Shown piece after piece: positions 30,315-33,277 of a DNA stretch of 64,000 nt. The notes beneath the pieces are model-generated. The model was given only the letters and a program-made list of their open reading frames with translations. It made no database searches and had not been told where the DNA came from. A program made the translations under genes and the position numbers. The stretch lies in assembly GCA_026702615.1 (NCBI GenBank), contig JAPPBY010000004.1, forward strand, positions 1 to 64,000, in the 5' to 3' direction. The first letter of the stretch is position 1. Every line of letters starts with the position of its first letter. The DNA comes from Chloroflexota bacterium. GTDB taxonomy: Bacteria; Chloroflexota; Dehalococcoidia; Tepidiformales; Tepidiformaceae.

Positions 30315-31160
30315 CTACCGGGCCTCGCCCAGCGTCACGTTGTCGATGAGCCGCACCGCCCCGAAGCGCACCGCCAGCGACAACATCGCCACCTCGTCCA
30401 CCTCCCCCTCGACCTCCGCCAACGTCTCCGAGTCCGCGAGGGAGACGTAGTCCAGCTCCGCCAGCGGCTCCGCCCGCACCAGCTCCCGCACCCCCGACCG
30501 TAGCGCCTCTGCCGAGCGCACACCGTCCTCGAACTTCCGCTCCGCCTCCCGCAGCGCCCGCGAGAGCACGACCGCCGCCGGCCGCTGTTCCGGCGTCAGG
30601 TAGGCGTTGCGGCTGCTCATCGCCAGCCCGTCCGCCTCCCGCACCGTATCGCAGGCCACGATCTCGACCGGCAGGTCGAGGTCCCGCGCCAGCCGCCGGA
30701 TGACGCGCAGTTGCTGGCCGTCCTTCCTCCCGAAGTAGGCGCGGTCCGGCTGCACGGCGTTCAGCAGCTTGGTCACCACCGTCGCGACCCCGCGGAAGTG
30801 GACCGGCCGCGATCCCCCCTCCAACCCCTGCGACACGCCCTCCACCGTCACGTAGGTCTGGTACCCCTCCGGGTACACCGCTTCAACGGCCGGCAGGTAC
30901 ACCGCATCGACGCCGATCTCCCGGAGCTGCCACAGATCCCCCTTTTCGTCCCGCGGGTACCGGTCCAGGTCTTCATTCGGCCCGAACTGCGTCGGGTTCA
31001 CGAAGATGCTTGCCGCCGACGCCTCGTTCTCGGCCAGCGACCGCCGTACGAGCGACAGGTGCCCCTCGTGCAGGTACCCCATCGTGGGCGTCAGCCCGAG
31101 GCTGACCGGGTGCGCCCGCCGCCAGGCGCGCATCTCCCCCGGGGTCGTCAGGATTTCCAT
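30315..31160 (-). CDS. panC: Pantothenate synthetase
   Basis: 281 residues. It has the HxGH nucleotide motif ([13 protein letters not shown]), [27 protein letters not shown] and the MSSRN loop. It joins pantoate and beta-alanine using ATP. It lies 22 bases after panB and is controlled by the shared structured leader. Confidence 0.96.
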
Positions 31161-31182: not shown

Positions 31183-32034
31183 TCAGGCGGGCGTGCTCGC
31201 GCCCTGGCGAAGCTCCGTCAGCGTCTCCTCGGTCATCGGGAAGCTCTCCTCCTCGGTCGGGAACGCTCCCTCCTCGACCTCCGCGACGTACTCACGGATG
31301 GCCCCGCGGATCGCCTCGCCCAGCACGGCGTAGCGCTTCGCGTGGCGGAACTGCCGCTGGTCGTCGAACAGCCCTAGCAGGTCGTGCAGCACCTGCACCT
31401 GGCCGTCGCAGTCCACCCCCGCGCCAATGCCAATGGTGGGCACGCCGATGCGCTCCGTCACCATCTTTGCGAGTGGCGCCGGAACCGTCTCCAGCACGAT
31501 CGCGAAGGCGCCCGCCTCCTCCAGCGCGCGCGCGTCGCCGATGATGCGCGCCGCCGCGGCCGGCGTCTTGCCCTGCACCTTGTGTCCGCCGAACTGGTTC
31601 ACCGATTGCGGCGTCAGGCCCAGGTGCCCCATCACGGGGATTCCCGCCGACACCATCCTCCGTACGAGCGGCGCCATCTCGCTGCCGCCCTCAAGTTTCA
31701 CTGCTCCCGCGCCCGCCTGAAGCAGGCGACCCGCGTTCTTGACCGCCTCGTCGGGGTTCGCCTGGTAGCTCATGAAGGGCATGTCCGCCACCACCAGGCA
31801 GCGCTCCGTGCCCCGCACCACCGCCTTCGTGTGGTGCAGCATGTCGTCCATCGTGACCGGCACCGTCGAGTCGTGGCCCAGCATCACCGTGCCGAGCGAG
31901 TCCCCGACGAGGATCACCGGCGCGCCGGCCTGCTCGACCAGCCGCGCCATCGCGTAGTCGTACGCCGTCAGCATCGCGAAGCGACGGTCCTCGCGCTTCC
32001 ACTCAGCCAGCTTGTGAATCGAAAGGCGTCCCAT
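31183..32034 (-). CDS. panB: 3-methyl-2-oxobutanoate hydroxymethyltransferase
   Basis: 283 residues from the ATG at 32034, chosen over an upstream GTG because GGAGGG sits 6 bases before it. Motifs MLTAYDYAMARLVEQAG, LVGDSLGTVMLGHDST, KLEGG and MGHLGLTPQSVNQFGG are the PanB signature, including the Asp/Glu metal ligands. It makes ketopantoate from ketoisovalerate and methylene-THF. Preceded by a leader with a terminator, suggesting attenuation. Confidence 0.96.
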   Translation of the reverse strand: MGRLSIHKLAEWKREDRRFAMLTAYDYAMARLVEQAGAPVILVGDSLGTVMLGHDSTVPVTMDDMLHHTKAVVRGTERCLVVADMPFMSYQANPDEAVKNAGRLLQAGAGAVKLEGGSEMAPLVRRMVSAGIPVMGHLGLTPQSVNQFGGHKVQGKTPAAAARIIGDARALEEAGAFAIVLETVPAPLAKMVTERIGVPTIGIGAGVDCDGQVQVLHDLLGLFDDQRQFRHAKRYAVLGEAIRGAIREYVAEVEEGAFPTEEESFPMTEETLTELRQGASTPA

Positions 32035-32062
32035 CGGTCCCTCCGCTCGCGTCAGTGCCACG

Positions 32063-32092
32063 AAAAACGCCCTTGCCGGGTTCGGCAGGGCG
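32063..32092 (-). terminator. Intrinsic terminator in the panBC leader
   Basis: On the minus strand a 10-bp stem (CGCCCTGCCG with CGGCAAGGGCG, one bulged A) with an AACC loop is followed at once by TTTTT. It ends only 28 bases before the panB ATG, so it can stop transcription before panB. Its 5' arm GCCCTG can also pair with CAGGGC at 32153-32158 upstream, a possible antiterminator. Confidence 0.8.
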
Positions 32093-32231
32093 CGGAACGG
32101 TAGAACCGGAAGCCAGGTACTGCTTGCTGGCCGCGGCTCGCCATCCGTACCGGCCCTGTGGGTCCAGGCGGACTAGAGCGTGCGTGGTCTCGTTTCCCAG
32201 GCTCGCCGTCCGCGAACGGATCGGCGGCATG
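32093..32231 (-). ncRNA. Structured panB leader, candidate pan-motif RNA
   Basis: The 5' part folds into a hairpin at 32201-32228: GC, C-G, GCCG, UCCG closed by a UUCG loop, with one bulged A on each strand (a 5' side A before UCCG and a 3' side A after CGGCG). A second, weaker copy of the 3' arm (CGGAUGGCGAGCC) occurs at 32133-32146. As I recall, the published pan RNA motif upstream of pantothenate genes in Chloroflexi, Firmicutes and Deltaproteobacteria is a hairpin with two conserved bulged adenosines, often in tandem. The match to that covariance model is inferred, not tested. Confidence 0.55.
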
Positions 32232-32235
32232 CGGG

Positions 32236-32264
32236 ATCGTCGCGACCCCGGAAACGCTTGTCAA
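32236..32264 (-). promoter_or_regulatory. Likely promoter of the panBC leader
   Basis: A perfect TTGACA (32259-32264) and GACGAT (32236-32241), 17 bases apart, on the minus strand. The -35 overlaps the stop codon of the upstream peptidase gene. Transcription would start near 32229, at the foot of the bulged hairpin. Confidence 0.55.
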
Positions 32265-33277
32265 CCCCTCTTGCCGGAACCTTCGCGCCACTCCCGAGCC
32301 GACGGTACCCCCGCCAGCCCCTCCGCCAGCCTGACGCTCCGCACGACTGCCCGCTCGACCGTGAGCATCGCCATCAGCCCCAGCGTCGTGAGGTCGTGCG
32401 GCTCCGTCGCGACCTCGCCCGTCGTCAGCGCGAACACGGTGTCGCCGTCGCCGAGCGTGTGCGCGGGAACGATCGATCGCGCCAGCCCGTCGTGCCCGTG
32501 CACCGCGAGCCGCTGGACCCCTACGTGCTCGATGTCGGCGTTCGTCGCGATGCAGACGAGCGTCGTGTTCGTCCGGAACGAATCCGTTCCTCCGACCCGC
32601 TCGACCACGGCCTGCTCCGGCGTCCGCATATCCCCGCTGCCCTCCCCCCGCGGCCCTGCCACCAGCTCCCCCGTCTCCGGGTCGACGATCGCCCCCACCG
32701 AGTTCGTCACAGCCAGCGCCCCCACCACCAGCCCCCGCGGCCCCACCAGGCTCGCCGTCCCCAGACCTCCCTTGAGCTCCTGCTCGACACCCAGCAGCTT
32801 CGCCACCGTCGCGCCCGTCCCCGCCCCCACGCTCCCCTGCGCGACCCTCCTGCCCGTCGCTCGCGCCGCCGCCCGCTCCCCCTCGTCCGCCCCCGGGAAC
32901 GCGTTCCGCCCCGTGGGCAGGTCGTAGATGGCGGCCGCCGTCACGATCGGGACCGGTCCCGCCTTCGTCTCCACCCCGACTCCCCGCCCCGCCAGCCAGC
33001 GCGCCACCCCCGCCGTGCTCGCGAGCCCGAACGCCGACCCGCCCGTCAGCACCACCGCGTGGCAGCGCCGGATCGCGTTCGCTCCCGAGAGCACCTCCGT
33101 CTCGTGCGTCGCGGGCGCCCCGCCCCGCACGTCCACCGCCCCCAGCGTGCTCTCCTCGCACAGGATGACCGTGCACCCCGTCGCCTGCCGCCGCGAGGTC
33201 CAGTGCCCGACGCGCACGCCCCGCACGTCGGTGATGGCGTCGCGCCTGCCGGGTGCGAGCGGCTCGACCGCGCTCAC
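32261..33277 (-). CDS. P1-family peptidase (DmpA/NylC-like N-terminal nucleophile hydrolase)
   Basis: 338 residues. The start AITDVRGVRVGHWT and VVLTGGSAFGLASTAGVARWL are family signatures. The autocleavage site is visible as FRTNTTLVC, where cleavage between Asn and Thr frees the catalytic Thr of the beta chain. Relatives are L-aminopeptidase D-ala-esterase and 6-aminohexanoate oligomer hydrolase. Overlaps the upstream gene by 4 bases. Confidence 0.9.
   Translation of the reverse strand: MSAVEPLAPGRRDAITDVRGVRVGHWTSRRQATGCTVILCEESTLGAVDVRGGAPATHETEVLSGANAIRRCHAVVLTGGSAFGLASTAGVARWLAGRGVGVETKAGPVPIVTAAAIYDLPTGRNAFPGADEGERAAARATGRRVAQGSVGAGTGATVAKLLGVEQELKGGLGTASLVGPRGLVVGALAVTNSVGAIVDPETGELVAGPRGEGSGDMRTPEQAVVERVGGTDSFRTNTTLVCIATNADIEHVGVQRLAVHGHDGLARSIVPAHTLGDGDTVFALTTGEVATEPHDLTTLGLMAMLTVERAVVRSVRLAEGLAGVPSAREWREGSGKRG

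Follow-up and report, generated by a model that had tools for sequence, protein, structure and literature searches.

The panBC operon in the window, by which we mean the whole stretch of 64,000 nt analysed here, is preceded by a structured leader, and the questions that it raises are whether this leader belongs to a known RNA family and how it could control the operon. The pan motif is described as a stem with two bulged adenosines, usually found in tandem, upstream of panB, panC or panD (PMC2864571). The genes mentioned in the founding paragraph on pan are panB, panC and aspartate decarboxylase only, and the phyla are three; the paragraph agrees with the initial annotation of this DNA that the ligand is not established (PMC2864571). 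Later papers mention pan in lists, ahead of panB operons in Bacillus methanolicus and Paenibacillus or as one of the leaders of B. amyloliquefaciens. Literature searches, with subscription journals mostly outside their coverage, returned no paper naming a pan effector or a switching mechanism. Here, we propose on sequence evidence that in this leader a divergent pan RNA, built as a tandem, attenuates transcription of panBC, a reading to which we assign a probability of about 0.77. Its kinship with pan, its promoter, its terminator and a mutually exclusive pairing with its co-variation are computed here; we infer the transcription start site, the direction of the switch and the effector.

Results

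Read along the minus strand, the region has the S58 peptidase gene, the leader, panB and panC in this order (Table 1), with the terminator lying just before panB, where the initial annotation had placed it. The S58 protein is left without a name by an NCBIfam scan. The TTGACA promoter proposed for the leader is kept in all 26 leaders of the window's family: the best sigma-70-like pair carries TTGACA in 25 and TTGACG in one, with a spacer of 16–18 nt and a mostly NACGAT-like −10 hexamer that ends 5–6 nt before the pan core (n = 26). A generic promoter scan misses the pair in the window because its −10 element matches at only three of six positions. Given that the promoter ends 5–6 nt before the pan core, the probable transcription start lies at or close to the first base of pan stem 1.

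Table 1 Features of the panBC leader and its neighbouring genes (positions in the window).
Feature	Position	Strand	Remarks
S58 peptidase gene (P1/DmpA-like)	32261–33277	−	Upstream of leader; in relatives often pan-linked
−35 element TTGACA	32259–32264	−	Overlaps stop codon of S58 peptidase gene
−10-like element GACGAT	32236–32241	−	Spacer 17; ends 6 nt before pan core
Whole tandem pan RNA	32141–32229	−	89-nt match of model R1
Pan stem 1	32201–32228	−	2+5+4 bp; bulged A 32221 (5′ strand) and 32203 (3′ strand)
Pan stem 2	32145–32171	−	Bulged A 32163 and 32148; conserved C·U mismatch 32168/32149
Antiterminator strand CAGGGCCGGUACGG	32145–32158	−	3′ strand of pan stem 2
Hairpin GCCAGC...CUGGC	32112–32131	−	Within antiterminator loop
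Antiterminator partner CCGUUCCGCGCCCUG	32086–32100	−	Extends into terminator 5′ arm
Intrinsic terminator hairpin	32068–32092	−	
Terminator U-tract T5	32063–32067	−	
panB, ketopantoate hydroxymethyltransferase	31183–32034	−	ATG at 32034, GGAGGG at 32039–32044
panC, pantoate-beta-alanine ligase	30315–31160	−	

The first check suggested for the leader, the Rfam pan model, is negative: RF01749, with a gathering threshold of 36.2 bits, has no match in the window or the leader at gathering and none at E ≤ 10, which places the leader outside curated RF01749 membership (≥36.2 bits with the Rfam model). Among 100 genomes of the same class the model has matches in 26, 18 of them over the cut-off, and it has none in the window's own genome or in the four other genomes of the family in that sample. 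We built a covariance model, R1, from 17 RF01749 finds in other families of the class, with the window's family excluded; these are 17 of the 20 RF01749 matches fetched, L040, L045 and L049 being left out as misaligned. R1 matches the 64-kb window exactly once, at the tandem pan RNA of Table 1 (36.7 bits, E 9.8e-8). It also matches 30 of 33 sources, comprising 27 of 30 panB loci of relatives (the window's own, L002, included) and three class loci that were not in the training set; L010, L029 and L031 are the panB loci missed, and L013, which is matched at 19.7 bits only, is absent from the leader set used for the covariation, antiterminator and energy tests. The R1 genome searches scored 74 of 713 and 150 of 743 first-look candidates, so the genome tallies are lower bounds, and this partial scoring is apparently also why the whole-genome search did not return the window's own leader.

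An open reading frame from 32230 runs through the leader and could suggest a peptide-leader or T-box attenuator. We regard both as extremely improbable and reject them: the ATG is not kept (it is GTG in L005 and TTG in L006, with no start codon in L009), and T-box and other Rfam cis-regulator models give no match at gathering and no plausible match at E ≤ 10.

The pan assignment is carried by the architecture as well as by homology to accepted members through R1. A geometric search for stems of 2 bp, a 3′-side bulged A, 5 bp, a 5′-side bulged A and at least 2 bp returns one perfect match, at 32201–32228, and one match with a single mismatch, at 32146–32170 (32145–32171 with a third outer pair); when the leader is shuffled by mononucleotides, 1.45% of the shuffles contain a perfect stem of this pattern. 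The double-bulged hairpin described in the initial annotation is thus exact, with 11 bp and no mismatch, and is pan stem 1. The two-bulged-A pattern is present in both stems and kept in relatives, the arrangement is tandem, and the position is that of the motif, upstream of panB/panC/panD operons. The true second stem had been overlooked, and the 'partial second copy' CGGATGGCGAGCC (32135–32147) is a different element: no 5′ partner was found for it that gives a pan stem, and part of it coincides with the 3′ end of the actual stem 2. It resembles the 3′ strand of stem 1 (12/13 by eye), and a repeat tool at its settings reports no repeat for it. Most leaders of the genus keep CGGATGGCGAGCC.

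Covariation in related genomes, the second check suggested, is strong. The set consists of 57 matches from 61 sources, 55 of them distinct, and includes the 17 R1 training sequences. Across the 55 distinct sequences 96.1% of 1,063 cells are paired and 16 of 20 pairs are changed on both sides, a result reached by 0 of 500 shuffles and with six slid versions also far off, in alignments fitted to R1, which favours the structure of R1. Restricted to the 25 distinct rows of the window's family, the alignment has 93.3% of cells paired; five pairs are double-changed, which 6 of 500 shuffles reach, and the covariation score is reached by none of 500, with counts that are non-independent events as the sequences are related. 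The C·U mismatch of stem 2, its identity read from the sequences, is present in 23 of the 25 rows. The combination named as speaking against the initial annotation, no model match together with no conservation in relatives, is not what we find: conservation is strong, and together with the R1 match it bears out the link drawn there to the orphan pan motif. By its predicted architecture and kinship the leader RNA is a pan RNA, although not an RF01749 match; where examined, Rfam's model misses pan RNAs throughout the window's family.

The proposed terminator is present, a hairpin followed directly by T5; a generic terminator scan misses this hairpin, probably because of its bulged base. The 6-base antiterminator match is exact, with CAGGGC (32153–32158) fully complementary to GCCCTG (32086–32091), and it extends to 13 bp when CAGGGCCGGUACGG is paired with CCGUUCCGCGCCCUG, with one U·U mismatch and one bulged C. 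The same strand is used by stem 2 and by the antiterminator, making the two mutually exclusive. The leader therefore has an explicit expression platform, as the initial annotation held, and a larger one than the 6 bp seen there; both elements of a transcription attenuator, a terminator and a mutually exclusive antiterminator, are found in the computed structures. In L006 the sequence of the hairpin within the antiterminator loop differs and, by eye, a hairpin can still be drawn.

The antiterminator duplex of the window has an energy of −23.6 kcal/mol, which 0 of 300 dinucleotide shuffles equal, and an equally good pairing with the arm is given by 33 of 63,980 windows taken along the 64 kb. An earlier, looser test with a long target gave p < 0.05 in 9 of 52 leaders and p = 0.21 for the window; the target was then narrowed to the 5′ side of the terminator, the site of the pairing in the initial annotation, so that the narrowed tests came second. 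The looser test and the class test used 52 of the 57 leaders (without L049, L040, L045, L027 and L063), with the terminators of L043, L016 and L014 set by hand. For the dinucleotide-shuffle test of the narrowed target, terminators were obtained for 102 of 133 records, and 22 of 26 family leaders were kept, four having no terminator by the rule. Eighteen of these 22 reach p < 0.05 (9 of 13 with similar leaders removed; Fisher 1.8e-8). Own arm–target pairs of family leaders have a mean of −18.5 compared with −16.0 when swapped, and 1 of 20,000 permutations does equally well; for L014 the own target is the poorest partner of all. Independent co-changes in the pairing are few, by our estimate perhaps two to four, the leaders being related.

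Outside the family the energy test is weak or null (class Fisher 0.03 or 0.32; other phyla Fisher 0.21). The pattern YCUYGG, the complement of the stem-2 strand CCGAGA, is present in 13 of the 27 class terminators, whereas 2,000 shuffles give a mean of 0.8 and at most 5; the pattern was picked after viewing the sequences, and the terminators were counted without kinship correction. A usable terminator was not found in family leader L027 or in class leaders L040, L045 and L049. In these three class leaders pan ends a few bases from the apparent gene start, and pan control may therefore act on translation there.

The two states of the leader are nearly balanced. In forced folds of a 179-nt leader, pan plus terminator has −80.6 and the antiterminator −80.2 kcal/mol, and the free optimum is the antiterminator fold at −81.1. 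Because the states lie so close in energy, the fold of a 205-nt leader shows the terminator instead, with a z of only −2.4. Across 24 family leaders (L016 and L027 left out) the ON minus OFF difference has a mean of −0.3 kcal/mol, with a range from −8.8 to +7.3, and when the terminator pairs and eight upstream bases are permuted the mean is +6.0. In 23 of the 24 leaders the real value is lower than the mean of that leader's permutations, with 7 of 24 individually at the 0.05 level (window 0.10).

The low z, together with the overlap between the peptidase stop codon and the −35 box, is what could be expected if the region held only a terminator for the peptidase gene plus chance hairpins in GC-rich DNA, which folds easily. 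This reading is very improbable: all 26 family leaders have a promoter directly ahead of pan, the stems show compensatory changes, R1 has its single match in 64 kb here, and pan is kept beside panD or panB in other genera, including panD–panB in sister genera.

A pattern scan of named genomes returned at least 119 stretches, of which 80 were fetched; among the matches listed, R1 confirms 76 of these 80 loci, with titles from Chloroflexi, Firmicutes/Clostridia, Deltaproteobacteria, Nitrospinota/Nitrospirota, Acidobacteria and others. These cross-phylum loci are mostly MAGs, for which single phylum labels are uncertain. The first ORF after pan was tallied for 65 of 72 ORFs, leaving out seven cut or doubtful ones. 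Among the matches listed it is panB in 32, a DUF2520 gene in 8, an ABC ATPase in 6, panC in 5, an S58 peptidase in 5, an SBF transporter in 3, type III pantothenate kinase (coaX) in 2, and panD and BioY in one each, plus others; the first ORF of L092 falls narrowly below the cut-off for an ECF S component.

Several neighbours of pan fall outside the founding description. The S58 peptidase is first after pan by Pfam in L081, L118, L126, L138 and L140 and, by the start of the sequence, in class loci L035, L037, L038, L043 and L050–L054; this recurrence suggests that the gene belongs to the pantothenate regulon. In nine of nine family genomes with pan directly before panB (G000–G004, G007, G014, G017 and G018; completeness 69–98%), panD (PF02261) is missing and the S58 peptidase is present, adjoining pan in the window. 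Our guess is that the protein acts as a beta-alanyl peptidase, which could be a source of beta-alanine in these panD-less genomes. Transporter genes follow pan in L087, L094 and L083 (ABC), L086 (BioY) and L102 (SBF), with transporter-linked pan RNAs in Anaerolineae/Chloroflexi, Clostridia and Megasphaera; uptake of pantothenate or pantoate is a possible role. The DUF2520/Rossmann-like oxidoreductase (for example in L152) is by sequence start also first in many class loci (L034, L044 and others), and may be a non-orthologous ketopantoate reductase. Lastly, pan precedes a HUMPS-type plus RraA-like fusion protein in L122 (2543–3898) and, by a similar N-terminus, in L047, and a possible formaldehyde link to PanB deserves attention.

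Discussion

The pairings suggest how the leader could work. During synthesis of the leader, the 3′ strand of pan stem 2 would have two possible partners: the other strand of its own stem or, further on, the 5′ side of the terminator. An effector, be it a metabolite or a protein, would signal pantothenate/CoA status and hold the tandem bulged-A stems; the strand would then stay locked in stem 2, the terminator would form and panBC would be off, and if the effector is missing the 13-bp antiterminator would form and panBC would be transcribed. Because stem 2 and the antiterminator share a strand, stabilization of pan should favour the terminator, and binding should switch panBC off. We give an even chance to the more specific view that pan in the window's family is a self-contained OFF switch acting through premature termination, with stem 2 as the switching helix.

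We know of no ligand for pan. The regulon joins synthesis, kinase and uptake genes, and the signal is therefore most likely pantothenate/CoA sufficiency. What carries this signal divides the attenuator model into two versions of equal weight, each of which we hold at slightly below even odds. The attenuator could be a direct metabolite riboswitch for pantoate, pantothenate, 4′-phosphopantothenate, CoA or beta-alanine, which would fit a feedback regulon in which the first downstream genes join synthesis, kinase (2) and transporters (ABC 6, SBF 3, BioY 1), but an RNA of about 20 pairs, with two bulged As in each stem, offers little space for a binding pocket. The same attenuator could instead respond to an RNA-binding protein, for example one that sits as a dimer on both stems. 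Such a partner would agree with bulged As that are conserved while loops and linker vary, and the pan passage of the founding paper takes the simplicity of the tandem structure to suggest a motif bound by a dimeric protein (PMC2864571), but in the loci examined no candidate regulator gene was found in first place behind pan, where the genes encode enzymes, transporters or a kinase.

For the attenuator as a whole, the balanced two-state design with a terminator read-out makes candidate effectors directly screenable, and the proposed early-termination switch before panBC makes the signal of the orphan pan family easier to seek. The position of pan before transporter and kinase genes narrows this signal to pantothenate/CoA status as the likely one. 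If the model is true, the missing effector could be found by a one-tube termination assay, and the regulon of synthesis, kinase, S58 peptidase, and ABC/ECF-type and SBF-type transporters would make pan a general feedback sensor for vitamin B5 in many phyla.

In transcription-attenuating riboswitch leaders, an aptamer-like stem, an antiterminator and an intrinsic terminator compete for one strand. The leader in the window resembles them, with the difference that its recognition element is two short bulged-A stems and that its effector is only proposed. Protein-controlled attenuators such as the PyrR and TRAP leaders are comparable in that the switch could equally be driven by a protein bound to a simple stem; here no partner protein is known, and the likeness is one of design. 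The closest known system is the pan motif RNA (RF01749; Weinberg et al. 2010, PMC2864571), with which the leader shares the two-bulged-A stem, the tandem arrangement and the position upstream of panB/panC/panD. Its stem geometry is identical to that of RF01749-detected members of the class. It differs in lying below Rfam detection, in the replacement of one mid-stem pair of stem 2 by C·U, in a stem 1 that is longer and capped by a UUCG loop in most of the window's genus, and in an explicit covarying antiterminator–terminator that is absent from the pan passage of the founding paper (PMC2864571). Judged from sequence, the leader is a genuine pan-family attenuator, divergent enough to escape Rfam rather than a new kind of system, and it has the clearest expression platform found for the pan family in the present analysis.
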